Positions 3,961-61,069 of a stretch of 64,000 nucleotides of DNA are shown here, piece by piece. The notes beneath the pieces were generated by a model. That model saw only the letters and a program-made list of their open reading frames with translations, ran no database searches and was not told where the DNA came from. The translations under genes and the position numbers were made by a program. Origin of the DNA: Thermodesulfobacteriota bacterium (GTDB lineage Bacteria > Desulfobacterota > GWC2-55-46); NCBI GenBank assembly GCA_030583865.1, contig CP129479.1:1822819-1886818 (forward strand), in the 5' to 3' direction. The number at the start of each line of letters is the position of its first letter. The stretch's first letter is position 1.

Positions 3961-5217
3961 TCAGGCCGTCTCGGCCCTGTTGCCGTACACGATAATGGGC
4001 TTGGCCTTGTCGAAGATAACGTCCTCGTTGATTATGCACTCCTTGATGTTGGTCTGCGAGGGGAGCTCGTACATCGTATCGAGCATCACGTTCTCGAGGA
4101 TTGCGCGGAGGCCCCTTGCCCCTGCCTTCCTCCTCATCGACTCCTTCGCGACCGCGGAGAGCGCGCTGTCGGTGAACTTGAGCTTCACGTTCTCGAACTC
4201 GAAAAGCTTCTGGTACTGCTTTATGAGGGCGTTCCTGGGCTCCGTGAGTATCCTCACCAGGTCCTTTTCGCTCAGTTCGTCGAGGACGGCCGTCACCGGG
4301 AGCCTCCCCATGAACTCGGGTATAAGCCCGTATTTCAGGAAATCCCCGGGCTCGACCTGGTGCATGAGCTTCGTGTAGCTCGTGTCCACGTCCTTCTGCT
4401 TAGATTCGTCCGTACTGAACCCCACGGCCCTCTTCCCTACCCTCTGGGCCACGATGGAATCCAGGCCCGAGAAGGCGCCGCCGCAGATGAAAAGTATGTT
4501 GGTGGTGTCCACCTGCAGGAACTCCTGCTGAGGGTGCTTGCGGCCTCCCTTGGGCGGCACGTTTGCGACCGTGCCCTCGATAATCTTCAGGAGCGCCTGC
4601 TGTACGCCCTCTCCGGAGACGTCCCTTGTTATCGAGGGGCTGTCGCTCTTCCTCGATATCTTGTCGATCTCGTCTATGTAGACTATGCCCTTCTGGCACC
4701 TCTCGATGTCGTACTCCGAGTTCTGCAGAAGGGAGAGTATTATGTTCTCCACGTCCTCGCCGACGTACCCGGCCTCGGTCAGGGTGGTGGCGTCGGCTAT
4801 GGTGAAGGGCACGTTCAGTATCTTCGCGAGTGTCTGCGCAAGGAGGGTCTTCCCTGAGCCGGTCGGGCCGACGAGCAGTATGTTGGACTTCTGGAGCTCA
4901 ACGTTCCCGAGGGACACCTTGGACTCGATCCGCTTGTAGTGGTTGTGGACCGCGACCGAAAGGACCCTCTTCGCGTGCTCCTGCCCGATGACGTACTCGT
5001 CGAGGATGTTCTTTATCTCCGCGGGCTTGGGGATGGCATGCTCCCTCTTCTTGAACTCCTCTTTCTCGTACTCCTCGGCAATGATGTCATTGCAGAGCTC
5101 TATGCACTCGTCGCAGATGTACACCATCGGCCCGGCTACGAGCTTCCTCACCTCATCCTGCCCCTTGCTGCAAAACGAGCAGGTCAGGTAGCTGCCGCTT
5201 TTCTTGTTGATCGACAT
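3961..5217 (-). CDS. clpX: ATP-dependent unfoldase ClpX
   Basis: A 418-residue AAA+ unfoldase that feeds tagged substrates to ClpP. The N-terminal C4 zinc-binding domain has Cys13, Cys16, Cys35 and Cys38 (CSFC...CDEC). Walker A GPTGSGKT is at 117-124, followed by the Walker [10 protein letters not shown] segment and the GYVGED-type pore loop. Full length. GGAGGAGAAG directly precedes the ATG. It follows clpP by about 46 bp, so the two are probably cotranscribed. Confidence 0.98.
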
Positions 5218-5263: not shown

Positions 5264-5866
5264 CTATTTCGGCTTGGCTTCAGTTGTGACCCTCTTCTCT
5301 ATGACCTTGTCAATTATACCATACTCGACCGCCTGCTGCCCAGTCATAAAAAAGTCGCGCTCCGTGTCCCTGTGTATCCTGTCGAGAGGCTGGCCGGTAT
5401 GCCGGGCCAGTATGGTTGTCAGCTCTTCCCTTACACGCAGTATCTCCTTGGCCTGTATGTCTATGTCGGTAGCCTGCCCCTGCGCGCCTCCGAGCGGCTG
5501 GTGTATGAGTATCCTCGAATGCGGGAGAGCGTAGCGCTTGCCCGGCGCGCCGCCCGCGAGGAGGAGCGCCCCCATCGACGCCGCCTGCCCGATGCAGATG
5601 GTCGAGACGTCGGGCTTTACGTACTGCATGGTGTCGTAGATCGCGAGGCCGGCGGTAACGAGCCCTCCGGGGGAGTTCACGTAGATGTGGATGTCCTTAT
5701 CAGGGTCTTCGGATTCGAGGAAAAGGAGCTGGGCGACGATCAGGTTCGCGATGTTGTCGTCCACGCCGCTCCCCAGGAAGATTATCCTGTCCTTGAGGAG
5801 CCTTGAATAGATGTCGTACGACCGCTCTCCCCTGCCAGTCTGCTCGACTACTATAGGGACAAGCAT
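5264..5866 (-). CDS. clpP: ATP-dependent Clp protease proteolytic subunit
   Basis: A 200-residue serine peptidase of family S14 that forms the ClpXP barrel. The triad falls exactly at the canonical positions: Ser97 (QAASMGA), His122 (RILIHQP) and Asp171 (DTERDFF). There is little propeptide before the fold. GGAGGGG precedes the ATG. The 110-bp gap to tig holds a palindromic repeat, so clpP may have its own promoter or be expressed through the repeat. Confidence 0.98.
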
Positions 5867-5883
5867 TTACCCCTCCGTTTATC

Positions 5884-5956
5884 GGCAACCTCTAAAAACG
5901 ATCTTTTTTCCGGCCTTCCTTGATTGCGGAAAAAATCTCCAATTTTATAGGTTGCC
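5884..5956. repeat. Dispersed palindromic repeat, family R1
   Basis: Imperfect inverted repeat bounded by GGCAACCTCTAAAA and TTTTATAGGTTGCC, with inner ATCTTTTTTCCGG/GCGGAAAAA arms. It fills the tig-clpP gap. Related copies are at 10091, 25379, 28165, 35433 and 39929. Confidence 0.8.
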
Positions 5957-25486: not shown

Positions 25487-25574
25487 GCCGGAGTGGTGAA
25501 ACTGGCAGACGCGCGGGACTCAAAATCCCGTGGGGTATCCCCCCGTGCGGGTTCGACCCCCGCCTCCGGCACCA
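25487..25574 (+). tRNA. tRNA-Leu (CAA)
   Basis: Acceptor GCCGGAG/CTCCGGC, anticodon arm CGGGA-CTCAAAA-TCCCG (anticodon CAA), class-II variable arm, T arm GCGGGTTCGACCCCCGC, encoded CCA. Complete and apparently functional. Its last 56 bp recur exactly at 51437-51492. Confidence 0.95.
25519..25574 (+). other. Candidate attL: 3' end of tRNA-Leu(CAA)
   Basis: The 56 bp from the anticodon loop to CCA are repeated perfectly and in the same orientation at 51437-51492. This is what tRNA-targeting integrases leave behind: an intact tRNA at one end and a 3' fragment at the other. Confidence 0.6.
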
Positions 25575-41292: not shown

Positions 41293-42501
41293 ATGCTCAC
41301 CGATTTGAAGCTCAAAAGGTACAAATGCACGCCAGGGAAGCGAGAGATTTTATGGGATAGGAACGGGCTTGGCTTACTCACCGGCGCAAGGAAAAAAACA
41401 TGGGTCTTCAGATACACCTTTGATGCAGAACGCAAGCTCATTACGCTGGGCGAGTATCCGGTAATGGGGCTCGAGGAGGCCAGGAAGGAAGCAGCGGAAG
41501 CCAAGCTGAAGGTCAAGAAAGGGATTGACCCTGGGACGATTAAAAAAATCGAAAAGGCCGAAAGACAGGCCTCACCTACCTTCGAGGAACTAGTCAGCGA
41601 GTTTTGGGACCGGGAGCTGAGCAAGCAGAAATCCGGCGCAGACAGGCGGCGGCTCCTCCTGAAAGACGTTGTGCCGGTATGGGGGCGGCTCAAGGTAAAG
41701 GATATCAAGCGCCGTCATATCGTCGTCCTCCTGGACGAAATAGAAAAGCGATCCAAATCTACCAGAAACCACGTCCACGGCGTATTGGGGCGGCTCTTTA
41801 ATTTCGCAGCCGAGCGCGGCGTTATCGAGGATAGCCCTTGCACCCGCATAAAGAAGCCCAAAGAGGAATCCAGAAGCCGCGTCCTATCGGATAAAGAAAT
41901 CAAGCTGGTATGGGCGGCCCTGGACCCTTCAAACAAAAAGATAGACATGTACGTTATTACAAAACTGGCCTTGAGGATGATTCTACTCACTGGCCAGAGG
42001 CCCGGAGAGGTTGCGGGAATGTCATTGGAGGAGCTCACCCCGGAGGGATTCTGGACCATACCGGCTGAAAGGATGAAAGGCTCCGAGGCTCACACGGTTC
42101 CGCTCTGTCCTCTGGCGCTTGAGACGATAGAACGGGCCCGGAGCTTCTCGGGAGATTGCCCTTTCGTATTCAGAAGCTCCTACAAAGAGAATGCACCCGT
42201 AACCAGGGCGGCCCTATCCCGCGCCGTCGTCCGGCATTGGAAGGCTATGGGGCTTAAAGAAGCCTTCACACCTCACGATCTCAGGCGAACCCTCCGCACA
42301 AGGCTTGCCGAATTGGGTATAGATGATATCGTCGCAGAAAAGGTAATCGGGCACCGGCTCCAAGGGATGCTGGCCGTCTACAACAGGCATAGCTACGACA
42401 TGGAAAAACGACATACCCTCGAATTATGGGAGCGGAAACTCCGGTCGATATTGGAGATCGATGCGCCGGTAGTGGCGAAAATCATACCGATGGGGAGGTA
42501 G
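41293..42501 (+). CDS. Tyrosine-recombinase integrase, P4 type
   Basis: 402 residues. N-terminal arm-binding domain (DUF4102-like, about 1-90; ILWDRNGLGLLTGARKKTWV), SAM-like core-binding domain (about 95-195), and a C-terminal catalytic domain with Arg236 (TGQRPGEV), His328-x2-Arg331 (HDLRRT), His354 (VIGHRL) and nucleophile Tyr363 (AVYNRHSY). All catalytic residues are present, so it may be active. AAGGAGGGG precedes the ATG. This family integrates islands at tRNA 3' ends; tRNA-like 3' fragments lie on both sides of the gene. Confidence 0.95.
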   Translation: MLTDLKLKRYKCTPGKREILWDRNGLGLLTGARKKTWVFRYTFDAERKLITLGEYPVMGLEEARKEAAEAKLKVKKGIDPGTIKKIEKAERQASPTFEELVSEFWDRELSKQKSGADRRRLLLKDVVPVWGRLKVKDIKRRHIVVLLDEIEKRSKSTRNHVHGVLGRLFNFAAERGVIEDSPCTRIKKPKEESRSRVLSDKEIKLVWAALDPSNKKIDMYVITKLALRMILLTGQRPGEVAGMSLEELTPEGFWTIPAERMKGSEAHTVPLCPLALETIERARSFSGDCPFVFRSSYKENAPVTRAALSRAVVRHWKAMGLKEAFTPHDLRRTLRTRLAELGIDDIVAEKVIGHRLQGMLAVYNRHSYDMEKRHTLELWERKLRSILEIDAPVVAKIIPMGR

Positions 42502-43835: not shown

Positions 43836-44714
43836 TTAAGCCGCCTGTACGGAGGGACGGCTGGAGTAGCCGGCCCTGGGTTTTTGCCAGTATGCCTCAA
43901 AAGGGGTCTTGTCGTCCAGACTTGAGTGCGGACGGCGCTCGTTGTAGAAGCTGATCCAGCGAGAGAGTCCATCCCGGAGCTCGCTTCCGGTTTCATAGGC
44001 GTTCAGATACACGCATTCATACTTGAGAGACCGCCAGAGCCTCTCGATCATCACATTATCCATCCAGCGCCCCTTGCCGTCCATCGAGATCCGGATACCG
44101 GCATCTTTGAGCGCGTTGGTAAAAGCAAAGCTTGTGAACTGGCTTCCCTGGTCGGTGTTGAAGATCTCAGGGCGCCCGTAACGCTCCAGGGCATCCTCCA
44201 GGGCCGCCACGCAGAAGTCGGCGTCCAGGGTGTTAGAGAGCCGCCAGGACAGGACCTTGCGGCTGGCCCAGTCCATGATGGCTACCAGGTGTAGAAAGCC
44301 TCGACGCATCGGGATATAGCTGACGCCGGCGCACCAGACCTGGTTCGGAGTGTCAATTGCCATGCCGCGTAGCAGATACGGATAGATCTTGTGTTCCGGG
44401 TGCGGCTTTGAAGTGTTGGGCCGCTGATAGATCGGCGAGAGCCCCATGACCCTCATAAGCCGGCCAATACGCTTGCGGCTTACACAGTACCCAAGGCGAC
44501 GCAGGTGACGTGCCATCTGCCTGGCGCCGTAACACGGGGTTTCCAGAAACTGCTCGTCAACCAGGCGCATCAGTTCCAGGTTCAGCGGTGTCTCGCCGAG
44601 GGACTGATAATACCAGGATGACCGCTTAATCGAGAGCAGTCTGCATTGCCGGGCAATGCTCAAGCCTTGGGCATGCCCGGGTTCGACCAGGCTTTTCCTC
44701 CGGACGTGGCTCAA
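43836..44714 (-). CDS. IS3-family transposase OrfB, catalytic Asp replaced
   Basis: 292 residues with HTH_21 and rve integrase-core domains. Of the DDE triad, the second Asp (FNTDQGSQF) and the Glu (NVMIERLWRSLKYE) are present, but the first motif reads WCAGVSYIP where active members have W-x-A/T-D-I/V-T/S-Y. A single GAC-to-GGC change explains it, and the enzyme should be dead. It overlaps orfA by 4 bp (ATGA); a T6 run at the end of orfA fits -1 frameshifting to an OrfAB fusion. Confidence 0.9.
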   Translation of the reverse strand: MSHVRRKSLVEPGHAQGLSIARQCRLLSIKRSSWYYQSLGETPLNLELMRLVDEQFLETPCYGARQMARHLRRLGYCVSRKRIGRLMRVMGLSPIYQRPNTSKPHPEHKIYPYLLRGMAIDTPNQVWCAGVSYIPMRRGFLHLVAIMDWASRKVLSWRLSNTLDADFCVAALEDALERYGRPEIFNTDQGSQFTSFAFTNALKDAGIRISMDGKGRWMDNVMIERLWRSLKYECVYLNAYETGSELRDGLSRWISFYNERRPHSSLDDKTPFEAYWQKPRAGYSSRPSVQAA

Positions 44715-45818: not shown

Positions 45819-46820
45819 TCAAAAATCGGCTTCACCGCTCTTCTGGACAAGCACCTCCCAGTCGGTGGAGTTCAGTCGTTTGACCTCAAGCACCCTGTGC
45901 CCCTCGAACTCTATCGCCCTTGGCATCTCGGTTACGGCCTGCTCATGGTCGACTATTATCTTCAATACCTGGCCTTCGTTAAGCTTTTCAAGCGATAGCT
46001 TTGCGTGGACGAAGTTTCCCGGGCAGGTGGTGCCCTTCAGGTCAATTTCTTTGTCCGGTCTGTGTTCTACAATCGATTGCCCGTTTATGTAAGCTCTCGT
46101 CTTTGCGAACCTCGGGTTGTTGAAGAACTCTTCAGCAGGGCCGTGCTCGATAAGGTTCCCAAGGTACATGAAAAGGACATAGTCGGCGAGCTTTCTTGCC
46201 TGCCTCAGGCTGTGGGTCACAAGGACGATGGTATATCTGCCCTTCAGCTCCTGAAACTTGTTTTCAATATGCTCCGCGGAGATAGGGTCGAGCGCGGAGG
46301 TGGGCTCGTCGCCGAGTATCACTTCAGGCTCTACCGCAAGGCTCCGGGCAAGGCATAGCCTCTGTTGCTGTCCTATGGAAAGGGCCGACGCTGGAAACGC
46401 AAGACGGCCCCTCACCTCTTCCCAAAGGCCAGCTATCCTGAGCTTCTCTTCAATAATAGCGTCAAGTGTCTTCCTGTCTTTTATGCCGTGTATCCTCGGG
46501 CCGTAAGCTATATTGTCGTATATGGACATTGGCAGCGTCTGCGGCCTCTGGGCAAGAAGCCCCACCTTCTTCCTTAAATGAGTAACTTCGGTCTTGGGGC
46601 TGTAGATATCCTCCCCGTCTATCAACACCTGCCCGTCTACCTTTACACCGTCATTAAGCTCAAGTAGCCTGTTAAAGGATTTAAGGAGCGTGGTCTTGCC
46701 GCAGCCCGAAGGGCCGATGATGGCTGTGACCTTTTTATCGGGTATATCGACTGAAATATTGTTGAGGGCCTTGTGGCCTCCGTACGAAACAGTAAGGTCT
46801 TTTATCTGGATGTGTTTCAT
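45819..46820 (-). CDS. PstB-like ABC ATPase fused to a TusA-type sulfurtransferase domain
   Basis: 333 residues. Residues 1-250 are a PstB-type importer ATPase: Walker A GPSGCGKTT at 36-44, signature LSIGQQQR (usually LSGGQ), Walker B VILGDEPTSALD. Residues about 257-330 are an added TusA/SirA domain (EIDLKGTTCPGNFVHAKLSL...LKIIVDHEQAVTEMP) with Cys266. The canonical CPxP reads CPGN. PstB normally ends near 255. It is the last gene of the operon. The fusion suggests a link to sulfur chemistry or sulfur-oxyanion import; that is inference. Confidence 0.88.
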   Translation of the reverse strand: MKHIQIKDLTVSYGGHKALNNISVDIPDKKVTAIIGPSGCGKTTLLKSFNRLLELNDGVKVDGQVLIDGEDIYSPKTEVTHLRKKVGLLAQRPQTLPMSIYDNIAYGPRIHGIKDRKTLDAIIEEKLRIAGLWEEVRGRLAFPASALSIGQQQRLCLARSLAVEPEVILGDEPTSALDPISAEHIENKFQELKGRYTIVLVTHSLRQARKLADYVLFMYLGNLIEHGPAEEFFNNPRFAKTRAYINGQSIVEHRPDKEIDLKGTTCPGNFVHAKLSLEKLNEGQVLKIIVDHEQAVTEMPRAIEFEGHRVLEVKRLNSTDWEVLVQKSGEADF

Positions 46821-46829
46821 CTTCTTCTC

Positions 46830-47681
46830 CTACTTGACAGTGTTTTTTGTAAACCTTCTGCTTATGATCCTCGCGGCGATGCTTATCGCCAGTATTATCA
46901 CAGTAAGGACGAGGGCTGACGCATAGCCTCGTTCCTGTACTTCCGGAAATGGAGTGCCCAGTTGGAAGAAGATTGCAAGAGGCAATGTGGCAACCGGCTG
47001 GAAGAGCGAATAAGGGAGCGAATCCGTAAAGCCAGCCGTAAAAAGCACTGAAGCGGCGTCACTTATGGCCCTCCCGAAGGAAATGAGAACGGCGGTAAGT
47101 AGACCCGGCAAGGCCTGCCGCAGCATTACTTTCAGCCCGGTTTCAAGCCTGTTCGCGCCTAAAGCCAGCGAGACTTCCTTGAGGTCAAAGGGCACGGTCT
47201 TCAAGACCTCGTCCATGGCCCTTGTCATGACAGGGACTACGAGCAGCGCGACGGTTATTACCCCTGCAAGGAGCGATGCCCTGAGCCCGAAGAAGACCAT
47301 TATGATGAAGCCGAAAGCGCCGTATACGATCGACGGCACCCCGAATAGTATGTCCAAAAGAAAGCGTGCCGAAAAAGCGAACCTCGATGACTTCCGGAGG
47401 TAAAGGTTCAAGTAGAGTGCCAAAGGCAGGCTCAAGATAAAGGCCAGCGCCGTGGCCCCCAGGCTCAATACCAGAGAGCCCGTGATGGCATTGAGTATGC
47501 CGCCCTCCTTGCCCATGTAGAAGCCGCCCTGCGGCGTCTTAATCAGCATATCGATAGAGAGAGCGCTGAAGCCTTTTATGAAAACGGTAGCGAGGATGAG
47601 CGCGAGAGAGCCGACGACGATAAAGGTGGCGGCGAGCATGAGCGCCTTGAATATCTTTTCTTCCAAAAGCGGCCTTTTCAC
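46830..47681 (-). CDS. Pst-like ABC permease, PstA type
   Basis: 283 residues, six TM helices, binding-protein-dependent transport domain with the EAA-type loop ...DLKEVSLALGANRLETGLKVMLRQALPG. PstA-type short N-terminus. It overlaps the PstC-like gene by one base and is 9 bp before the ATPase gene. It forms the membrane channel with the PstC-like subunit. Confidence 0.92.
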   Translation of the reverse strand: MKRPLLEEKIFKALMLAATFIVVGSLALILATVFIKGFSALSIDMLIKTPQGGFYMGKEGGILNAITGSLVLSLGATALAFILSLPLALYLNLYLRKSSRFAFSARFLLDILFGVPSIVYGAFGFIIMVFFGLRASLLAGVITVALLVVPVMTRAMDEVLKTVPFDLKEVSLALGANRLETGLKVMLRQALPGLLTAVLISFGRAISDAASVLFTAGFTDSLPYSLFQPVATLPLAIFFQLGTPFPEVQERGYASALVLTVIILAISIAARIISRRFTKNTVK

Positions 47682-48604
47682 TACGCGCCTCCTTTTTCCA
47701 ATTTGAGGAGTATCCCCCAGCCGAGCATGTTGAACGCGGCAGTGACCGCCAGAAGAACGAAGGCAGCGAGAAATACGGCTGAATCGTAAAGCGGTATGGA
47801 CATGAGCTCGCCGTATGTATTTGCGATAAAGGCCGGGAGCGGATAGGCCGTGTCGAATATGGATGCCGGAAGGACATTAAGAGCAGAGCCAGCCACCATC
47901 AGCACAGCCATCGTCTCGCCTAAGGCCCTTGAGAGCCCCAGTATCACGGCAGCTATAATTCCAGGCCATGCCTTTCTTACAACCGCGTGCTTGACCGTCT
48001 GCCACTTTGTCGCTCCCAACGAAAGAGAAACTTCCCGCAATCCTTCAGGCACGGTCCTCATGACCTCTTCGGCAACAGAGATGATTATCGGGAAGACCAT
48101 CACCGAAAGAACAATACCCGCGCTCAGGGCTGAAAAGCCCGTGTAGTTGTCAGAGGCGAACGGGAAGAACGGGAATGTTTCGCTTACGAACGGCATGATG
48201 TAGTCCCGCACCAGCGGCACGACCACTATTACGCCCCATACGCCGTATATGATGGGAGATATCCCTGCGAGCAAGTCTATTACCGGCTTGATGATACCTC
48301 TTACCCGTCTATCGGCATACTCGGACAAATAAATGGCCGTCAACATGCCGAGGGGGACGGCTATTACAATCGCGACTCCAGTGACAAGGAATGTGCCGAT
48401 TATGAAGTTGGCTAGCCCGAACCTGCCTTCATCGGGGTGCCAATAGCCGGAGAGCAATATGTCTCCTATACCCGCCGATGAAAAGACGGGGGTAGCCCTC
48501 GCGAAAAGAACAAGGGCAATAAAAAACGCGAGGCTTATAACCGAGGCGCAGATGAAAAACATCACGCGCCTGGCGAGCCTGTCTTTAAGTTTTCTGATAT
48601 CCAT
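47681..48604 (-). CDS. Pst-like ABC permease, PstC type
   Basis: 307 residues, six TM helices, with a large periplasmic loop after the first helix (GIGDILLSGYWHPDEGRFG) as in PstC, and the cytoplasmic loop GLREVSLSLGATKWQTVKHAVVRKAWPG. Partner of the PstA-type permease. 57 bp downstream of the binding-protein gene. Confidence 0.92.
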   Translation of the reverse strand: MDIRKLKDRLARRVMFFICASVISLAFFIALVLFARATPVFSSAGIGDILLSGYWHPDEGRFGLANFIIGTFLVTGVAIVIAVPLGMLTAIYLSEYADRRVRGIIKPVIDLLAGISPIIYGVWGVIVVVPLVRDYIMPFVSETFPFFPFASDNYTGFSALSAGIVLSVMVFPIIISVAEEVMRTVPEGLREVSLSLGATKWQTVKHAVVRKAWPGIIAAVILGLSRALGETMAVLMVAGSALNVLPASIFDTAYPLPAFIANTYGELMSIPLYDSAVFLAAFVLLAVTAAFNMLGWGILLKLEKGGA

Positions 48605-48661: not shown

Positions 48662-49597
48662 TTACTGCAGGCTCTTCAATACCTTTTCGCGCTCTGCCTT
48701 TGGGATGGGCAGGCTTGTGCCTACCTCATCGACTATCCTTGCGCCTTCGTCCGACAAGGCGAACCTGATGAATTCCAACACGTGCCCCTGCGGCTTTTCC
48801 TTCACGAAGAAGTAGTTCTTCCTCGTCGCGGGATAACGCCCGGCTTCGATAGCCTTTATCGCAGAGTCACGGTCCTTAAAGACCTCGTCAGGGTCTGCCT
48901 TGCCGTTGCCGTTCGCGTCGATGGGAACGAGCTTAATTCCCTTCGCGACTGCTCCTTCACGGGTGAAGACAAAGCTGAAGTTACTGTAACCGATGCCCAG
49001 GGGGTCTCTCCTTACTGCCTCTACGAGGCCCGGGTCGCCGTAGACTCCCACGCCTTTAAGATCTTCCTGCTTTTTATTGCCTATGTATTTGGCCCAGCTT
49101 GCGGCAGCGCCGCAGGAATCAGAGCGTGTGTAGACATGGACCTTTTTGCCTGTCTTTGTCCCGGCGACTTCGTCCCATGTGGAGAGGAGGCCAGTGATGT
49201 AGAGGCCTGACCACTTGTCTTTCGCGATCCCCTTTTTCAAAAGGCCATCCAGCGAAGGGTTTCTCTCGCTCACAATCGGGAAGACCGCGTCATGCAGGAT
49301 GTATACCGGCGTTACGCCTTTCTTTAGCTCGGCCGGGTCAGGCTCCCTTGAGACCATCCCTATATCCGCGAGCCCTGCGATGGCATCGGCCGCGCCTTTC
49401 CCAGCCCCTCCGGCTGATATATCTATCCTCACTTCAGGGTGCTTTGCCCGGAAGGCATCGGCCCAGGCGACCGCTGTCGGATATATGGCCCACGCACCCG
49501 AGATCGTTATGGACCCCTTCAGCTCGGCAGCATGGGCGGCTCGCCCCCCGGACAACAACAGTAAAAATGCAAAAAACAGTAACGCTATCTTTTTCAT
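48662..49597 (-). CDS. PstS-like oxyanion-binding protein, phosphate ligands not conserved
   Basis: 311 residues with signal peptide (MKKIALLFFAFLLLLSGG...AHA), periplasmic, PBP-like-2 fold. Compared with E. coli PstS as I recall it: GAGATFP reads SGAWAIYP; VDFGASD, whose Asp56 accepts the phosphate proton, reads ADIGMVSRE with no Asp at that place; and RADGSGT reads RSDSCGA. Loss of the Asp argues for a fully ionised anion such as sulfate. Also contains DANGNGKADPDEV, an EF-hand-like calcium loop. 10 bp after the porin gene. Confidence 0.8.
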   Translation of the reverse strand: MKKIALLFFAFLLLLSGGRAAHAAELKGSITISGAWAIYPTAVAWADAFRAKHPEVRIDISAGGAGKGAADAIAGLADIGMVSREPDPAELKKGVTPVYILHDAVFPIVSERNPSLDGLLKKGIAKDKWSGLYITGLLSTWDEVAGTKTGKKVHVYTRSDSCGAAASWAKYIGNKKQEDLKGVGVYGDPGLVEAVRRDPLGIGYSNFSFVFTREGAVAKGIKLVPIDANGNGKADPDEVFKDRDSAIKAIEAGRYPATRKNYFFVKEKPQGHVLEFIRFALSDEGARIVDEVGTSLPIPKAEREKVLKSLQ

Positions 49598-49607
49598 TCC
49601 GGCCTCC

Positions 49608-50711
49608 TTAGAATTGAACAGTCAACTGCCCAGTGAGGGCGTTATTGTCGACCTTGGTCCCCTTTTCCCTTTTGTCCTCATAGTTCACCTGCAGGAAGGA
49701 CCATTTATTGAAGTAGATGTTCGCGCCAGCCGTATAGACGTCTGTTTCGTTTTTACTCACGCCCTTGTCAGGGTCGAACGTGTCGAACTTGACTACCCCC
49801 TGAAGCAGCTTCGGGATGATGAAATACCCCGCCTGCAGGTACCAGCCTTCCTTGTCCTTCGAGCCGTCCTCCCCGCGGATATACTCGCCTTTTATGGAGA
49901 AGGGGTCGCCAGTGTAGGCGAACTCCACTCCGACCCTGTCCCTGTTCGCTCCGGTATAGCTGCCTTCATAAACGGACGTGCCTATGGAAAGGTCATTGAG
50001 GACGCGAAAGGCCACTCGGCCGATGATGTCCTTTTGCTCATCCTGGTCGGCCCTGTTTATGCCTGAGCCGTTGAATACGCCCACAGAGTATTCGACGAGC
50101 TTGCGGCCGCCGTAGTCGATGAGACTGCCGCTTGCCTGCACGCCGGTATCGCGCCCGTTGTGGTTGCCGATCACATCGCTGCCGCGCGCGACAAGGGCTT
50201 CGACCACCTGCGAACGATTTATGGTCTCGAGCTTTGTATTGGAGGTGACGTTCTCGAGACTGAAGGGGACTAGGAACTGCCCTGCAGTTATCCTGAGACC
50301 AGGGGACCATGCGTAGGCTGCCGTGGCATCGAGTATTTTGGCCGATGAACCCGCAAGCTCGGTCTGAAGCCTCAACTCAAGCCTTTCGGTAGGCGCGGCC
50401 CTCAGGTCAAGCCTTGCCCGCCTTACATCGAAGGTATCTTTTATGCTCTCATCATTTCTGTATCTGACCTGCGCGTAGCCGCCGAGCTTTACCGGCCTCC
50501 CGGCGATTACAAAGAACTCTTTCTGGTTTTCCTTTTCTTCCTGTTCCCTTACCGCCTCCTCGGCCCTTAAACTCGCGGCATCTTCCTTGCTCACCGAGCC
50601 CTTCTCCACAAGCAGGTCAAGGAGCCTGTCGTACCCTTGTCCTGCCCAGGAAAGAGGGGTTAAAACAAAAAGGCTGACAAACAGCCCAATGGAAAGCGCA
50701 AAACTCTTCAT
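49608..50711 (-). CDS. OprO/OprP-family anion porin
   Basis: 367 residues. Signal peptide MKSFALSIGLFVSLFVLTPLSWA, a short N-terminal coiled coil (LLDLLVEKGSVSKEDAASLRAEEAV), then a 16-stranded Porin_O_P barrel: KLGGYAQVRYRND, FDVRRARLDLRA, ITAGQFLVPFSLEN, ending GQLTVQF. The family includes phosphate- and polyphosphate-selective porins. GGAGG lies upstream of the ATG at 50711. Coexpressed with the binding protein, giving an outer-to-inner membrane import path. Confidence 0.9.
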   Translation of the reverse strand: MKSFALSIGLFVSLFVLTPLSWAGQGYDRLLDLLVEKGSVSKEDAASLRAEEAVREQEEKENQKEFFVIAGRPVKLGGYAQVRYRNDESIKDTFDVRRARLDLRAAPTERLELRLQTELAGSSAKILDATAAYAWSPGLRITAGQFLVPFSLENVTSNTKLETINRSQVVEALVARGSDVIGNHNGRDTGVQASGSLIDYGGRKLVEYSVGVFNGSGINRADQDEQKDIIGRVAFRVLNDLSIGTSVYEGSYTGANRDRVGVEFAYTGDPFSIKGEYIRGEDGSKDKEGWYLQAGYFIIPKLLQGVVKFDTFDPDKGVSKNETDVYTAGANIYFNKWSFLQVNYEDKREKGTKVDNNALTGQLTVQF

Positions 50712-50804
50712 ACATACCTCCAAAGTTTTTGCGGCCTCCAGTTGACTGGTCAGCCTATTATTATTTTTTTATGCCTGAGAACCTTACATCTGGAAAAAAC
50801 TTTC

Positions 50805-50960
50805 TTAAGCTTCACCTCCTTTTTTGCAATTCTGGCCGAGCCTTATCTTTTCCGTCTTGTCGATCTGCACGACTTTTGAGTCCTGGATGATTATCTGCAC
50901 GTTCCCGAACTTTACGCTCTTTACGGCCTTCAATATTTCCTCGCTTATCCCCTTTTCCAT
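50805..50960 (-). CDS. YezD-like small protein (DUF2292)
   Basis: 51 residues: MEKGISEEILKAVKSVKF, then GNVQIIIQDSKVVQIDKTEK, matching the DUF2292/YezD pattern ending in QIDxTEKxR. GGAG lies 6 nt before ATG 50960; an in-frame ATG at 50972 would add four residues. First gene of the porin-transporter operon and directly behind the leader hairpin. From memory YezD-type genes often accompany sulfur assimilation genes, which fits the TusA domain. Confidence 0.75.
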   Translation of the reverse strand: MEKGISEEILKAVKSVKFGNVQIIIQDSKVVQIDKTEKIRLGQNCKKGGEA

Positions 50961-50981
50961 TTCCCTCTCCATTTGGTCGCT

Positions 50982-51140
50982 AAAAAAACAAAAAACCCAC
51001 TACCGTACTCGGGTAATGGGTTTTGGGGAGCCGTTCTGTAGTTGTTTTTCTTACACGGATAGACCCCTGCCCATTACCATATGCGTACAACAACACATAC
51101 ACGTGGTAGTGGACAAATTTAAGATGTTAGAAAGGTCTAT
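50982..51140 (-). promoter_or_regulatory. Attenuator/riboswitch-like leader with competing hairpins
   Basis: In transcription order: arm P1 (51140-51134, ATAGACC), A (51112-51104, CCACTACCA), B (51079-51070, TGGTAATGGG), P1' (51065-51059, GGTCTAT), C (51021-51012, ACCCATTACC), D (51004-50995, GGTAGTGGGT), then a TTTTTGTTTTTTT run. C-D is an intrinsic terminator, A-B closes the upstream domain inside P1, and B-C is a perfect 9-bp antiterminator. It ends about 20 nt before yezD. No known riboswitch consensus was recognised. Confidence 0.7.
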
Positions 51141-51182
51141 TTTCATGGTCTAAATACTTGAGTAACGCAGTAAGATATTAAG

Positions 51183-51211
51183 AAGATACTCTGAGCTTAG
51201 TTCATTGTCAA
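51183..51211 (-). promoter_or_regulatory. Sigma-70-type promoter of the yezD-porin-transporter operon
   Basis: TTGACA (51211-51206), 17-bp spacer, TATCTT (51188-51183). Start of transcription expected near 51176, giving a leader of about 200 nt. Confidence 0.75.
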
Positions 51212-51436: not shown

Positions 51437-51492
51437 CTCAAAATCCCGTGGGGTATCCCCCCGTGCGGGTTCGACCCCCGCCTCCGGCACCA
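51437..51492 (+). other. Candidate attR: 3' fragment of tRNA-Leu(CAA)
   Basis: 56 bp identical to 25519-25574, from the anticodon loop to CCA, in the same orientation. The 5' part of the tRNA is absent. It marks the far end of the candidate island. Confidence 0.65.
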
Positions 51493-54157: not shown

Positions 54158-54508
54158 CTAAGGCTTGTTCTCCCCCTCAGGCACGTAGATCATGGTGCCG
54201 TCAGCCAGCCTGTAGGCAACGCCTGCACGCATGCCCTCCCCCTCCCCGATCTCGCCGGTAGACTTGTAGTGCTTCAATTCCTGCCCCTCCTTCATGAGTA
54301 TCTCCATGTTCTCCTTGCCGGGGTTCTTGATTACCGTGACATCCTCATTCGAAAACGGGTTCAGCGGGTTCTGCGATATTATGATCACCAGCACCGCTAT
54401 GACTACAAGAAAGACGTCGACGATATTGATTGCAGAGAGCACCGGGTCCTCTGTCTCATCTCCCTGAAGGTACCGCCTTCTCGGCTGGTGGACGGTTTTT
54501 TCAGACAT
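54158..54508 (-). CDS. DUF2149 protein, HmuV-like
   Basis: 116 residues: Arg-rich start, one TM helix (about 28-46; VDVFLVVIAVLVIII), then a periplasmic part ending in RLADGTMIYVPEG. The layout resembles ExbD (one N-terminal helix with an Asp, here IVDVFLV), and DUF2149 proteins accompany CobN/HmuS-like genes. It probably forms a proton-driven complex with the adjacent ExbB/TolQ-like protein, whose gene overlaps it by 8 bp. Confidence 0.85.
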   Translation of the reverse strand: MSEKTVHQPRRRYLQGDETEDPVLSAINIVDVFLVVIAVLVIIISQNPLNPFSNEDVTVIKNPGKENMEILMKEGQELKHYKSTGEIGEGEGMRAGVAYRLADGTMIYVPEGENKP

Positions 54509-54971
54509 GGCCCCGCTCCTCCAGCCTTCTTAAATCGTCCATCAGCCACCGCCTGCGCACGGTAAGGAGCCAGAAGGATATGGAGGCCGCTATGAGCGCG
54601 ATTATGACAGCGGCGAACGCGATTACCAGGTTTTCACTCACTCCCTGCGTGTTGCCGTCCGTAAGCGACATAAGCGCAGGCCCCATCGGTATCATGGTTG
54701 CCACCAGACCCAGCATGGGGGCTGTGCGCGAGGCCAGGCGCAGGGGCTCGAGCCTCCGAAGCATCCAGAGCTCAAGGTCCTCGGCGGCGCAGCCGGTGCG
54801 TTCCCAATGAATATGTAAGTCGGGTTTATTGCCCTTCCGCCTCTGCCATGCCTCGACCGCGAAACGCCCGCTGGAATAGAACGCGAATACGAAGAGCCCC
54901 AGTATTATGAGTAGCACCGGGGCAAGAAAGAGCTGCCCCAGCTGGTACATCAGCACTTCAAGAGCGTACAT
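54501..54971 (-). CDS. MotA/TolQ/ExbB-like proton channel protein, HmuU-like
   Basis: 156 residues with three TM helices (about 13-33, 80-100, 115-137). MotA_ExbB pattern: SRTAPMLGLVATMIPMGPALMSL...NLVIAFAAVIIALIAASISFWL. Start at 54971 has AAGGAG upstream. Lies between the CobN-like gene (47 bp upstream) and DUF2149. Distinct from the full ExbB at 62.3-63.1 kb, so the operon encodes two proton-driven complexes. Confidence 0.88.
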   Translation of the reverse strand: MYALEVLMYQLGQLFLAPVLLIILGLFVFAFYSSGRFAVEAWQRRKGNKPDLHIHWERTGCAAEDLELWMLRRLEPLRLASRTAPMLGLVATMIPMGPALMSLTDGNTQGVSENLVIAFAAVIIALIAASISFWLLTVRRRWLMDDLRRLEERGHV

Positions 54972-55018
54972 CGAAATTCTCCTTTCAACCTTTTCATCTT
55001 TTGTATTGTCCGGCCAGT

Positions 55019-58000
55019 CTACTCTGCCTGGCGCCTCTGCCTGCCCTTGTTCCATTGCGCCAGCGCCCCTGAGAGGAAGACCACAGCCAGGAGCCCCGCC
55101 ATAAGGAAGACCATCCGGAGGTCGTGCGTGTTGATTGATTCAGCTGCTTTCATGACCTGGCCTGCGACCTTGGCGGCCGCGTTCGCGGCCCCGCCGCTGC
55201 CACTCGCCTTGAAGCCGTCCATCCCGAAACCCGCGGCCGCCTGGCGCGCGTACTCGTCAAGGAGCTTGTTATCCGTCTTGTAGTCGTGCCGCTCGACCGC
55301 GTCCAGGTATGTTTCGACCAGGGCGCGTACAGTGGCTTCGTCCGCGTCCCAGTAGTCCTTCCTTACGGCTTCGAGCATGCGCTCGGCGACCTGGGCCAGG
55401 GCAACTGGGTTGGTCTCCTCGAACCACTCCCGGATGCCGAGGTCGAGCGAGTCCTTGACGTATACGTCGAAGAAGCTTTGCCACTGGTCGTCACGGACTA
55501 TCTCGGGCGCGGTTACCTGCCAGCCCCAGAAATTATTGACCGTATCCACGATATTAAGGGTGCCGGCGTGGCCTTCGGACTTCATGGCCTCCACCCACTG
55601 GGGATGGTGATAGCGGGTGCGGAGCTCTGAAGCCAGGAATTTCGCGGCAGACTCCGTCCGGCCGTTGGCTGAGTCCCTCAGGTTGCTGATGTACAGTCCG
55701 GGGCTTTTCCCGTCGATGTTCCGAACTGCCAGCGAAATGCCGCCCAGATACTGGAACGGGTCGTCGGTGCTGAGCATGCCGTAGAGGTTTGAGGAACGGG
55801 AGAGCACTGCGGCCTCGACTCCCTTGAGCTGCTCCTTGTACAGGTTCAATCCCTCGGGCTTCATCCCCCAGCGCTCCGGATCAGGGCCGTACGCGTACTG
55901 CATCTTGCTGAGGTAGAGATCCGCCATGCGGCTGTCGTTCTCCCAGGTGTCGGAAGCAAGGGCAGCGTCCTCAAGTCCGGTGCCGTACGCGCCGCTCTCG
56001 CTGGAAAAGACCCTTGTCAGGGCCATGTCCCTCGCCTCCGCGGCGGCGATGCCCTTTTCGAGCAGCGCCTTCTCAAGCGCGATGGCGTTCGTGCGCACGG
56101 CGTTGTCAGGCTCGTCCAGTTCCGCCACCTTCACCACGGCCTTTGCAATCTGGTCAATGATGATGGGGAAGTGGTCGCGGTACAGGCCGGTGGCCGAGAC
56201 CACGACGTCTATGCGGGGCCTTCCGAGCTCGTCGCGGGGGATGACCTCTATTTCGGTTACCCGGCCTGCCTTGTCCCAGACCGGACGGACGCCGAGGGCG
56301 TAAAAGACCTGAGCCTCCAGAACCCCGAGGTGGCGCATCGTCTCGACAGACCAAAGGGAAAAGGCAAGCTTCTCCGGATAGCCGCCGTTCTCGGCCTTGT
56401 GAGCCTCCAGAAGGGAGTTCAGGGCCTCGCGGCCAGCCTTAGACGCCTGGACGGTAGGCACCTTCGAAGGGTCGAAACCGTACAGGTTCCGGCCGGTCGG
56501 CAGCGTGTCCGTATTCCGGATCGGGTCGCCTCCATAGCTCGTCTCCACGTGGCGCCCGCCGAGCGCTGCCAGCACCCCCGAAAACTCCTTGCCCGCGCCG
56601 AAGGAATCGTAATACTCGCGCGCTTTCTCAATGAACGGGCGGAGCGACTTGTCCGCAACAGGGACTCTTTTTGCCACATGGCGCTCCAGGAAACGATACG
56701 GCGCGGACTGGGTAAGCTTCGAGTAGTCCTCTACGAAAAGCTCCTCGCTGTCTTCGAGCGCGAGCTTCTCATAGAAGTCGGGGCCCAGCATCTGCATGAC
56801 GGTCATGAGCCTGTGGACCGGTTCAGGGGCTTCGCCGAGGGTATGAAGGCCCAGCGGCTGCGCGGCCTGGGCCAGTTCATGAAGATAATCATGAAGCTGG
56901 CGATGGAACCCCGGGAAATCACCGCGCGCGGACTCGGCGGTCCAGCCCAGGTCCTCAAGCATCTTCCGCTCGGCTGCCGCCTCGACTATGGCCTCGCCGG
57001 TCCGGACCTTCACCGCGCCCTCGTCAAGCAGCTCGTACTCGTGGATAAGGTCGTGTAGCGGCATAAGCTCCTTATGCAGGCCTGCCGGGGCGAACGGGGG
57101 CGTCTGGTGGCTAATGATAACGGCCCTGCCGCGGCGCTTGGCCTGGGTCGCCTCGCCTATGTTGTCCACTATATACGGATAGACCACCGGCAGGTCACCG
57201 AGAACCAGCAGCGGGTCGTCGTATATCGAAAGACCCCGCTCCTTGCCCGGCGTCCACTCCTGGCTGCCGTGCGTGCCCAGATGGATGAGCGCGTCGGCGC
57301 TGAAGGCCTTCCGCACATACAGGTATGCGGCCGCATAGAAATGGTTTATCGGGACCTTGCTGTCGTGATAGATGGCCTTTTCCGCCGGTTCGCCGGCCTG
57401 CCCCCTGGGCGGCTGCGGCATTATAAGGAGGTTGCCGCGCACCATGCGCGGGACGGCGAAGTACTTTGCCCCGTCGCGCTCAATGACCATCGGGTCGGTT
57501 TCAGGGCCTCCCCAGCGCGCCTCAATCCTGTCCTGCACCTTTTTCGGGAGGGCCCTGTACCAGCCCAGATAATCCTCCATGGGCAAAAGACCTGCCAGGT
57601 CGCGCTCCAGAAGCGCCGTAAGCTGGTCGTCCCTATAAAAAGGCCTAAGCATGGCCGTGCATTCGTCAACGGCCGTTTTCTCCTCAAGGGGGCCGGTAGC
57701 ATACCCCTCCCCTTTCAATGCGCCGTTCAGGGTCACAAGGCTCCTCGGGACGTTCAAAAACGAGGCCGAGAGATTCTTTTCGCCCCGAGGGTAGTTGTAG
57801 AACATCACAGCCACCCTCTTCTGGGCGTTGGGCATTGCGCGAAGCCGGGCGAGCCGCATGGCCTTGGCCACCATCGCGTCCATCTGCTCCGGTATGGCCG
57901 CAAGTCGGCCGCCCTCAACGGCGGAGACCACCATTGGGTCTATGACACCGGTATACTCCGGTATTGCGAGATAGAACGGGATGCCGCTCATGGGGATGCC

Positions 58001-58948
58001 TATCTTGCTCTCGGACCAATCGGCAATGTCACCGTTCCGCCAGCTTATGGCGTGGAGGACCGGCACGCCGAGCGCCGCGTAGGAATCGCGCCGCACGTCA
58101 AGGTACATGACCTGGTAGTTGATGAGCACGTCGACCGCAGGCCTCCCGTCCTCTCTCGTAATCAATGCAAGAGGCTGCCCGCCGCTCCGCTGAGGCTCGA
58201 GCGGCTCGTAGAAGACAACCGGGAGCGCCCCCTGCTTTTCCAGCCTGGATATAAGCGCGTCTATATGGTCCGTCAGCGCGTCGCTTATCGAAGCCTTGTG
58301 GATGGATACCCCTATGACAGGGGTGCGGCTGGAAGCCTCCTTGCCGAGCCAATCCAGATACTCATCCAGGCTTTCGACCACGCGCTCGGGATGGCCGGGG
58401 TGGTATATGCCCGTTGCCGGCAGTACTACGGGCGGCGGGACTTCGCCTCCGCCGCCCAGCACCGCGCTCTCAAGATAGCGGAAAAAGTTCCCGAAGTTTA
58501 TAAGCCCGCCGTTCCTGTAATAGGCATACAGGGTTTCCGCCTGCTCTTTTTCAAGACCGGCGTACTCAGGCCCGGCTCCCGTCACAAGCAGCCAAGGAGC
58601 GCCAGCTTCCTGCAGAGCCTGGCCGGCCTTTTCACGGGCCTTGGACGCATCGGACGCCCTTGGGGCATCCAAGAGAACGAGTTCGGCCCTGCGCATGGCG
58701 GGAATCAAATCAGCCGGGTCCGTCTCGTCGAGGTTGTATTTCACGGCACTCACGCCCGCAGCACGCGCGGCATCCGTGACCGTATCGAATTTCCCGGCCA
58801 GGACGAAGCTGTTACTGAGGATTACCACCTGCGGACCGGCGGAAGCCTTCCTGTTTTTAACGACCCCAAAGAGGACGGCGGCCACCGCTATGAATACGGC
58901 GAGGCCCGCTGCCAGCCAGGGAGTGCGTAAGTAAGCCTTTTTTTTCAT
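55019..58948 (-). CDS. CobN/HmuS-like chelatase homologue, membrane-anchored
   Basis: 1309 residues, CobN/magnesium-chelatase H superfamily over almost the whole length. Key motif HLGTHGSQEWTPGKE begins at His556 (His560, Glu564), followed by GDLPVVYPYIVDNIGEATQAKRR as in CobN. Unlike cytosolic CobN it has an N-terminal signal/TM helix (about 11-31) and a C-terminal TM helix (about 1283-1303), so the body faces the periplasm. No CobS/CobT partners are present. With a TonB receptor next to it the order matches Bacteroidetes hmuR-hmuS, whose HmuS has been reported to take iron out of haem. Cobalt/B12 handling is the alternative. Confidence 0.88.
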   Translation of the reverse strand: MKKKAYLRTPWLAAGLAVFIAVAAVLFGVVKNRKASAGPQVVILSNSFVLAGKFDTVTDAARAAGVSAVKYNLDETDPADLIPAMRRAELVLLDAPRASDASKAREKAGQALQEAGAPWLLVTGAGPEYAGLEKEQAETLYAYYRNGGLINFGNFFRYLESAVLGGGGEVPPPVVLPATGIYHPGHPERVVESLDEYLDWLGKEASSRTPVIGVSIHKASISDALTDHIDALISRLEKQGALPVVFYEPLEPQRSGGQPLALITREDGRPAVDVLINYQVMYLDVRRDSYAALGVPVLHAISWRNGDIADWSESKIGIPMSGIPFYLAIPEYTGVIDPMVVSAVEGGRLAAIPEQMDAMVAKAMRLARLRAMPNAQKRVAVMFYNYPRGEKNLSASFLNVPRSLVTLNGALKGEGYATGPLEEKTAVDECTAMLRPFYRDDQLTALLERDLAGLLPMEDYLGWYRALPKKVQDRIEARWGGPETDPMVIERDGAKYFAVPRMVRGNLLIMPQPPRGQAGEPAEKAIYHDSKVPINHFYAAAYLYVRKAFSADALIHLGTHGSQEWTPGKERGLSIYDDPLLVLGDLPVVYPYIVDNIGEATQAKRRGRAVIISHQTPPFAPAGLHKELMPLHDLIHEYELLDEGAVKVRTGEAIVEAAAERKMLEDLGWTAESARGDFPGFHRQLHDYLHELAQAAQPLGLHTLGEAPEPVHRLMTVMQMLGPDFYEKLALEDSEELFVEDYSKLTQSAPYRFLERHVAKRVPVADKSLRPFIEKAREYYDSFGAGKEFSGVLAALGGRHVETSYGGDPIRNTDTLPTGRNLYGFDPSKVPTVQASKAGREALNSLLEAHKAENGGYPEKLAFSLWSVETMRHLGVLEAQVFYALGVRPVWDKAGRVTEIEVIPRDELGRPRIDVVVSATGLYRDHFPIIIDQIAKAVVKVAELDEPDNAVRTNAIALEKALLEKGIAAAEARDMALTRVFSSESGAYGTGLEDAALASDTWENDSRMADLYLSKMQYAYGPDPERWGMKPEGLNLYKEQLKGVEAAVLSRSSNLYGMLSTDDPFQYLGGISLAVRNIDGKSPGLYISNLRDSANGRTESAAKFLASELRTRYHHPQWVEAMKSEGHAGTLNIVDTVNNFWGWQVTAPEIVRDDQWQSFFDVYVKDSLDLGIREWFEETNPVALAQVAERMLEAVRKDYWDADEATVRALVETYLDAVERHDYKTDNKLLDEYARQAAAGFGMDGFKASGSGGAANAAAKVAGQVMKAAESINTHDLRMVFLMAGLLAVVFLSGALAQWNKGRQRRQAE

Positions 58949-58966
58949 TAACCTCTGCCCCCCAAC

Positions 58967-60925
58967 CTAAAACTGCGCCCGCAGGCTCGCGTAGTAAAAG
59001 CGGCCGCGCTCGACAGTCGTGAAATTCCGGGATTTATCGCTCAGGCGCTCGTCCGTAAGGTTCTCTATGCCAACACCGAGCTCGACTCCGGGGGCAATCT
59101 CCTTCCTGACGTTCATGTGCCACAGGGTATATGCCGGCAGGTCCACCGGCGTATTTACGTTGTAAACCACCTGCTCGCCCGTGTAGACCCCGCGGACCTG
59201 GGGCTTTAACCCCCACGGGGCTTCGCTCCAGTCTACCCGTAGAGAGGCCGCATGCCTGGGCCGCTCCGCCAACGCGCGGTTGTTAGTCAGGTCGTCCGCC
59301 TCAAGCCACGAGTGGTTGAAGGAGACGTCAATACCGTACTGGAAGGCGTAGCCCAATACGAGCTCGGTGCCCTGCGTGCGCGCCTTTTCCACATTGAGAT
59401 GCTCGTATACGCGCCCGAGCGGAGCAAGGCAGTTCGAGACGCAGACGTTCATTATCAGGTCGTCGATCTCGTTCCTGAAGACCGTGAGCTGCGCGCTCAG
59501 GGCACCGGCGCGGTACTCGGCACCTGCCTCATAGCTCTGCGAGCGCTCGGGCTTGAGGTCCGGGTTGCCCGTGAACGTGTACGGCCCCACAAAGATGTAT
59601 TCCGGCGATATCTGCTTCAAGGTCGGCGCCCTGAATCCTTCGCCGTAGCCCGCCTTGAAGGTCCACTGCGGGTTGGCATGATAGACTATATATCCCTTGG
59701 GGCTGAGCTCTGAGCCGAAAAAGGCGTGGCTGTCGTTACGCGCCCCAATGGTTACTGATAGGGCGTCCGTGAGGAATATCTCGTCCTGGAGAAATATGGC
59801 CCGGTTTATCGCCTTTCCCTCGCCGCCGGCGAGGGCGGCGTGCTCGAGTATCTCCTCGCGGAACTCGCCGCCGAAGGTTACCAGCTGTTTTTTACCGAGC
59901 GGTATCGTCAGCTGCGCGTCCGCGACCCTGTCTATGAGCTTCTGGGACTCTGTTGGAGCCACAAGCGCGTTATCGGTCCGATTTTCCGCCTTCAGGCTGT
60001 TCTGGTACGCGTTTGCCGAGACCCTTGCCGCTCCGAACTCGCCGTGATAACTCAGGGAATTCTGCTCCCTGGTCAGGTCATAGCTGCTTACATGCAGTAT
60101 GGTGTTGTTGCGGTTGAAGGTATTCCGCCAGCGCTCCTCGTCGCCACGGGTAAAGGTCAGCTCGAAACGATGCCCGTCGACGGGGGACAGGGTTATCCCG
60201 GCGGTGCCGGTAAGTAGGTCCTTGCCCTCAAGCTCGGAAATCCTCGAATCGATCGCGCTCGGCGTGGCCCCGACCCAGGCGTTCTGCACCGACAGCTTCA
60301 GTCCGAGCCGGTCCTGCACGATCGGACCCGTGAGGGACAATCCGAGCTGGTATTCGTCGCCGCCCCGCCCGTCCTCTCGCTTGCCGCCCATTGCGCTTAT
60401 AGAGCCGCGCCATTCCTTGCCGACCGGCCTGGTGATTATGTTGACGACGCCCCCCATCGCGTCTGAGCCGTATAATGACGACGCGGGGCCGCGCACCACC
60501 TCTATCCGCTCGATGTCTTCGAGCGGGATCCAGGTAAATCCGTAGTCGGAATGCCCGATGTACTCATCAGAGGCCGTAATCCGGCGCCCGTCGACCATGA
60601 GCAGCACGTGCTTGCTGTCGAAGCCGCGGAGCCTTATCGTTTCCCGCCCGCTCAGGCCCTTTCCGGACAGGGTTATTCCAGGCACGTCGCGTATGGCGTC
60701 GACTATGTCGCGCGCCGGGCGCGACTCGATGTCCTCGCGAGTGATGACGGTCACTGAAGCCGGCACGTCTTCCAGCGAAACCTCCGTCTTTGTGGCGGTG
60801 ACGAAAACGCCCTTCGATTCGACCGACTCGCTCTCGGCGGCGCCCGCGACCGCCGCGCCTGAAACCACGAAAGCCGTTAACAGACCGCATACTCCTGTAA
60901 TGACCTTTCTTTTTTGCACTTCCAT
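58967..60925 (-). CDS. TonB-dependent receptor, probably for haem or another metallated tetrapyrrole
   Basis: 652 residues. Signal peptide (MEVQKRKVITGVCGLLTAFV...AGA), plug domain (about 40-150; VFVTATKTEVSLEDVPASVT, then RPARDIVDAIRDVPGI, GSDAMGGVVNIIT) and a 22-strand barrel ending FYYASLRAQF. BtuB/HmuR-like in arrangement. Start at 60925 has GGAGAAG upstream. A Fur-type box lies about 60 bp upstream of the start, and the CobN-like gene follows after 18 bp. Confidence 0.93.
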   Translation of the reverse strand: MEVQKRKVITGVCGLLTAFVVSGAAVAGAAESESVESKGVFVTATKTEVSLEDVPASVTVITREDIESRPARDIVDAIRDVPGITLSGKGLSGRETIRLRGFDSKHVLLMVDGRRITASDEYIGHSDYGFTWIPLEDIERIEVVRGPASSLYGSDAMGGVVNIITRPVGKEWRGSISAMGGKREDGRGGDEYQLGLSLTGPIVQDRLGLKLSVQNAWVGATPSAIDSRISELEGKDLLTGTAGITLSPVDGHRFELTFTRGDEERWRNTFNRNNTILHVSSYDLTREQNSLSYHGEFGAARVSANAYQNSLKAENRTDNALVAPTESQKLIDRVADAQLTIPLGKKQLVTFGGEFREEILEHAALAGGEGKAINRAIFLQDEIFLTDALSVTIGARNDSHAFFGSELSPKGYIVYHANPQWTFKAGYGEGFRAPTLKQISPEYIFVGPYTFTGNPDLKPERSQSYEAGAEYRAGALSAQLTVFRNEIDDLIMNVCVSNCLAPLGRVYEHLNVEKARTQGTELVLGYAFQYGIDVSFNHSWLEADDLTNNRALAERPRHAASLRVDWSEAPWGLKPQVRGVYTGEQVVYNVNTPVDLPAYTLWHMNVRKEIAPGVELGVGIENLTDERLSDKSRNFTTVERGRFYYASLRAQF

Positions 60926-60985
60926 CTTTCTTCTCCCGTCTTTTTTATTGATTGCGGCTCGCGCCTGCCTATATAATTTAATATT

Positions 60986-61004
60986 GAAATTGAATGTCAT
61001 TTTC
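60986..61004 (-). promoter_or_regulatory. Fur box upstream of the TonB-dependent receptor
   Basis: GAAATTGAATGTCATTTTC matches 13 of 19 positions of the Fur consensus GATAATGATAATCATTATC, in an AT-rich stretch between tonB and the receptor gene. It points to iron-repressed expression and an internal promoter. Confidence 0.65.
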
Positions 61005-61069
61005 ATATGCTGAACAGGGTTTCGCACGGCGGGCCGCGCAAGCTGGCCGGCGTGGCTTTGCGAAGCCGC

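Follow-up and report, generated by a model that had tools for sequence, protein, structure and literature searches.

The leader upstream of yezD was identified as a candidate ribosome-mediated transcription attenuator of the trp/his type that would read charged tRNA-Cys and control a sulfur-uptake operon; the probability of this reading was put at about 0.9. In the window (the whole 64-kb stretch of DNA analysed), the leader holds a short open reading frame (ORF) that is conserved in a second genome, a set of competing helices, and a cluster of Cys codons that matches the edge of the zone within which a paused ribosome permits antitermination. The small Cys-rich ORF, which the initial annotation of this DNA did not mention, changed the reading of the leader, and the earlier claim of an unknown riboswitch class is replaced by a concrete, testable mechanism.

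Leader RNA and its reading frame

Promoter, arms A–D, P1 helix and terminator, as named in the initial annotation, were all found on the minus strand between 51211 and the start of yezD at 50972. The sigma-70-like promoter TTGACA-17-TATCTT (51211–51183, minus strand) agreed with the consensus at 10 of 12 positions; shuffled versions of the same 1-kb region gave a mean of 1.6 sites of equal quality, and its action as a promoter is plausible, not proven. From its position we infer a transcription start at ~51176.

The arms, all on the minus strand, were assigned as follows: A (GTCCACTACC, 51114–51105) is the 5′ arm of the protector hairpin; B (GGTAATGGGC, 51078–51069), which lies within the leader ORF, is the 3′ arm of the protector or the 5′ arm of the antiterminator; C (CCCATTACC, 51020–51012) is the 3′ arm of the antiterminator or the 5′ arm of the terminator; D (GGTAGTGGG, 51004–50996) is the 3′ arm of the terminator. 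The P1 arms are ATAGACC (51140–51134) and GGTCTAT (51065–51059). Both P1 and the A–B helix (−17.9 kcal/mol) are present in the window as they had been drawn. The 9-bp B–C antiterminator was recovered with 9/9 positions paired and proved to be lengthened by GGGG/CCCC (51067–51064 with 51028–51025); with these extra pairs included, the fold from B to C amounted to −23.1 kcal/mol and was stabler than the C–D hairpin by itself. The proposed C–D terminator was located at 51024–50982 (minus strand; 13 pairs, −17.0 kcal/mol), its T-rich tail reaching 50982. The leader folded more stably than its dinucleotide shuffles (z = −2.47; 2 of 200 shuffles were equally stable).

The leader-peptide ORF comprises 31 codons (51146–51051, minus strand; ATG at 51146, TAA at 51053–51051) and encodes MKIDLSNILNLSTTTCMCCCTHMVMGRGLSV followed by the stop. 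It begins 6 nt 5′ of the P1 5′ arm and reaches 5 nt beyond the P1 3′ arm; A, the loop, B and that 3′ arm all fall within it. The regulatory codons TGT ATG TGT TGT TGT (Cys-Met-Cys-Cys-Cys; 51101–51087, minus strand) are codons 16–20 of the ORF and are placed between arms A and B. At least four Cys in five codons of a closed short ORF occurred in 2 of 20,000 dinucleotide shuffles of the leader, and when both strands of the 64-kb window were scanned a cluster of such density was found nowhere else. The leader therefore has a short ORF with clustered codons for the amino acid supposedly sensed, upstream of the structural genes. No clear Shine-Dalgarno sequence was seen ahead of its ATG.

Homologous leader in a second genome

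A homologous leader was found in G022 (JACRCM010000163.1, L053; Deltaproteobacteria bacterium isolate NC_groundwater_1646), which belongs to the same family as the source genome and to a different genus. Its ORF (MFKHGIANLNMFPDATAQMCLCCCASQAMGGGLST and stop) is preceded by GGAG ~13 nt upstream and, as in the window, is followed by yezD and then a porin gene; the two yezD products are 64–67% identical. The two ORFs were aligned indel-free over the 17 codons that begin with the Cys cluster and run up to the stop, the common core of the peptides being CMCCC / CLCCC ... MGxGLSx stop. The shared Cys codons differ only synonymously, and the indels fall in the terminator loop and in the stretch that separates the stop from C, so that regulatory codons and frame are conserved in this one homologue.

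Arm B of G022 is GGCAATGGGC, arm C is identical to that of the window, and arm D is GGTAATGGG; the terminator hairpin was calculated at −15.7 kcal/mol (window, −17.0 kcal/mol). An intrinsic terminator thus stands between the leader ORF and the first gene in both genomes. The B–C and C–D helices recur in G022; the form of A–B and P1 is not preserved there. According to the partition function, the best partner of B in G022 is the Cys-codon stretch itself, and a window-like A–B pairing costs ~5 kcal/mol; a protector function in both leaders despite the differing pairing is plausible. The homologous leaders found are two (window and G022), and the covariation is therefore thin. A–B had also been considered as a covarying helix in G022 (8/10 pairs) and was dropped, the partition function giving no support.

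The recurrence bears on two other explanations of the leader. A constitutive terminator accompanied by a fortuitous ORF, the hairpins merely ending or dampening transcription and the operon being regulated otherwise, would suit the frequency of terminator-like sites (1.4 per kb expected in shuffles, i.e. common) and the want of a strong ribosome-binding site in the window. The Cys cluster, the frame and arms B, C and D are nevertheless repeated in the second genome before the same gene pair, and of all readings weighed this one was given the least credence.

The logic of the leader had been described in the initial annotation as that of a riboswitch or an attenuator. The attenuator part, with its terminator and antiterminator, was supported by their recurrence in G022; the riboswitch part was not. 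An undescribed metabolite-binding, transcription-terminating riboswitch with A–B and P1 as the aptamer would account for the mutually exclusive helices and the terminator, which are real, and for the lack of any fitting Rfam class. What the two leaders conserve, however, is a Cys-codon reading frame without indels between cluster and stop, and the density of its Cys cluster is the one matched by 2 of 20,000 shuffles; it is the frame that is kept in G022, and a conserved aptamer sequence or structure independent of that frame was not found. That A–B and P1 as originally drawn are not conserved counts against the aptamer as well, and such a riboswitch is considered very unlikely. Instead of an RNA-bound ligand, the attenuator is predicted to read charged tRNA-Cys.

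Folding of the nascent RNA and proposed mechanism

The nascent RNA, ending 3 nt past C and before D, was folded while the ribosomal A site was shifted codon by codon; no pairing was allowed for RNA beneath or 5′ of the ribosome (footprint edge +11). The probability of B–C pairing, P(B–C), was for the window: 0.89–1.00 on the Cys codons, 0.53 and 0.05 at the next two, then 0; for G022: 0.67–0.80 on the Cys codons, then 0.52, 0.05 and 0. At codons upstream of the cluster in G022 the value was mostly ≤0.1, with 0.3–0.4 at two codons and 0.67–0.70 at the last two before the cluster; in the window it was high too for ribosomes upstream of the Cys codons, and 0.56 without a ribosome. In both leaders a paused ribosome ceases to permit antitermination directly past the Cys codons and, by computation on nascent RNA, one paused on these codons allows the antiterminator that excludes the terminator to form.

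With full-length RNA at equilibrium and pairing across the ribosome barred, the terminator was always favoured, even when the ribosome was stalled; the switch must therefore be kinetic, B–C forming before D exists. The nascent-RNA scan was the third model setting. A first stall simulation showed a switch and was not relied on because it allowed doubtful pairing between RNA on the 5′ side and RNA on the 3′ side of the ribosome.

The proposed mechanism is as follows. Transcription would begin near 51176 and the 31-codon peptide would be translated. Under a shortage of charged tRNA-Cys, the ribosome would stall in Cys-Met-Cys-Cys-Cys and mask the 5′ arm of the protector, B being left free; B would then pair with the emerging C, D would be unable to pair, and RNA polymerase would continue into the yezD, porin and Pst-like transporter genes. 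With ample cysteine, the ribosome would pass B up to the stop codon, C–D would pair and transcription would terminate. Cysteine-tRNA would thereby exert end-product control over sulfur uptake.

Arrest of the ribosome by the nascent peptide itself, e.g. through a small molecule or redox state sensed by the cysteines and not through the supply of Cys-tRNA, would explain that the C-terminal MGxGLSx is also conserved in the two leaders, which sensing of starvation alone does not need. These codons coincide in part with arm B and with the extra pairs of the antiterminator, and RNA pairing explains their conservation; moreover, the antitermination zone ends at the Cys codons, as stalling there predicts. 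Peptide arrest was accordingly held to be very improbable.

Operon genes and probable substrate

All genes of the operon lie on the minus strand: yezD, encoding an OscA-like small DUF2292 protein (50805–50972; PF10055, E = 4.3e-17; NCBIfam sulfur_OscA, 39 bits, below the cut-off of 85); an outer-membrane porin of the Porin_O_P family (49608–50723; PF07396); a PstS-like substrate-binding protein (48662–49597; PF12849, TIGR02136 below cut-off); PstC-like (47681–48604) and PstA-like (46830–47681) permeases, for which the TIGR02138 / TIGR00974 pair scored over cut-off; and a PstB-like ATPase (45819–46820; PF00005) with a fused C-terminal TusA sulfur-transfer domain (PF01206, E = 1.3e-17). OscA is, by its NCBIfam naming, a sulfur-starvation response protein, to which the similarity of YezD is sub-threshold.

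In G395 (L113), CysD and CysNC are encoded directly downstream of a relative of the transporter. A second relative (L108) has an Rrf2-type regulator upstream. A TusA match was absent in all four relatives checked (L107, L108, L110 and L113). Because of the OscA-like YezD, the PstB–TusA fusion and the relative beside CysD/CysNC, sulfate or another sulfur oxyanion is the probable substrate as judged from gene content, and cysteine fits the presumed pathway of the operon through the same three features. The attenuator would then be independent evidence that the Pst-like transporter found here, with its PstB–TusA fusion and the accompanying OprP-like porin, serves sulfur, not phosphate, and that the uncharacterised YezD/DUF2292 works in cysteine supply.

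Searches for further leaders

An Rfam scan of the leader returned no family at its gathering score and none with E below 0.9; up to E = 10, weak, chance-like matches were obtained (best, RF00111, 19.2 bits against a cut-off of 38 bits). The initial annotation had likewise recognised no known class; the absence of an Rfam match is expected for a lineage-specific leader-peptide attenuator. No match to the leader was found by blastn against plasmids. The motif GGYAATGGGCRGRGGTCTATC was searched in 63 genomes of the class with 3 mismatches allowed: it was exact solely in the source genome and G022, and the remaining matches did not exceed the level of the reversed-pattern control.

Few genomes of the class carry a DUF2292 gene (2/63, the source genome included), and none was found in the five same-genus genomes searched. 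Among 395 genomes of the phylum, the upstream regions of DUF2292 genes that were read lacked the leader, other genes abutting yezD. No comparable Cys leader was present in the upstream DNA examined for relatives of the Pst-like transporter in 11 other genomes, nor among the cysS leaders of the class (n = 30). The closest transporter relative (G006; PstS 72% identical) lies in a locus that stops at a contig edge.

Relation to known attenuators

The trpL, hisL and ilv/leu attenuators of proteobacteria consist of a short ORF with clustered codons for the pathway product and of segments forming a protector (1:2), an antiterminator (2:3) and a terminator (3:4). The present leader resembles them in having an ORF with regulatory codons, a protector, an antiterminator and a terminator upstream of a pathway operon. 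It differs in sensing Cys ahead of an operon for uptake of a sulfur source, in the position of arm B, which the ORF includes and passes to a stop codon 15 nt further on, and in lacking a clear Shine-Dalgarno sequence in the window, as noted above.

Cysteine attenuators as such are already known; what is new is the instance on a sulfur-uptake operon, for which no earlier description was found. In Mycobacterium and other Actinobacteria, poly-Cys leader peptides precede cys operons; a study of them detected no conserved terminator hairpins and suggested Rho (PMC1262725). Cysteine-responsive attenuation by poly-Cys leaders with leaderless ORFs is ascribed to Canestrari et al. 2020 in PMC13236596, which cites that work. 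These leaders, for which attenuation has been proposed or shown, share with ours a run of Cys codons in a short ORF before sulfur genes; unlike them, the present leader has a full intrinsic terminator plus antiterminator, in another organism and before other genes.

Before cysS of Rhodobacterales, uORFC-8-2 carries tandem Cys codons in a first stem followed by an intrinsic terminator, and ribosome-mediated attenuation was predicted (PMC8632094). The window leader is similar in its uORF with Cys codons and downstream intrinsic terminator, whereas uORFC-8-2 is alphaproteobacterial and has two tandem Cys codons near positions 14–15, in place of CMCCC at codons 16–20. No sequence relation between the two was found, and with yezD as the downstream gene and Cys at codons 16 and 18–20 the window leader falls outside uORFC-8-2. 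In the literature searched, no earlier description of cysteine leader-peptide attenuation in Deltaproteobacteria was found, which is no proof of absence; the leader would extend the known cases to a deltaproteobacterial lineage, with a cysteine attenuator whose terminator and antiterminator are both complete.

Cysteine elements around yezD in Clostridia

Cys-rich uORFs followed by a hairpin were observed upstream of yezD in three Lachnospiraceae or Clostridiales contigs: L087 (about 5795–5884), L089 (about 4065–4205) and L063 (about 5780–5863). The hairpins of L087 and L089 end in a T-rich tail, that of L063 in a weaker one; the peptide from the inner start of the L089 ORF, MKELNVANQKAIVMCCCQTVCIKTAYFSYALCT, is an example. 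Judged by sequence, the three are likely to be further cysteine attenuators. A tRNA-Cys gene was located within ~250 nt downstream of yezD at 10 of 16 scanned loci; the ten, from Lachnospiraceae and related Clostridia, are L059, L060, L063, L071, L075, L077, L080, L082, L087 and L089. Together, the uORFs and the tRNA genes suggest, but do not prove, a recurrent link between yezD and charged tRNA-Cys. A wider idea, offered tentatively and somewhat against the odds, is that YezD/DUF2292 belongs to a Cys-tRNA-responsive circuit found across phyla, in which Cys-leader attenuators would have arisen or spread repeatedly before yezD, both here and in Lachnospiraceae, where a tRNA-Cys gene often follows it, and YezD would match sulfur supply to cysteine charging.

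Genomic setting

An exact 56-bp copy of the 3′ end (25519–25574) of the tRNA-Leu(CAA) gene (25487–25574, plus strand) was found at 51437–51492 (plus strand), ~260 nt upstream of the presumed transcription start. This copy marks a probable integrated island of ~26 kb, and the attenuated operon sits near its right end. A phage-type integrase (41293–42501, plus strand) and an IS3-like transposase (43836–44714, minus strand) are also encoded. The next cluster, outside the island (54158–61027, minus strand), encodes a CobN-like chelatase (1309 aa), small membrane proteins and a TonB-dependent receptor, which suggests metal or cobalamin uptake.
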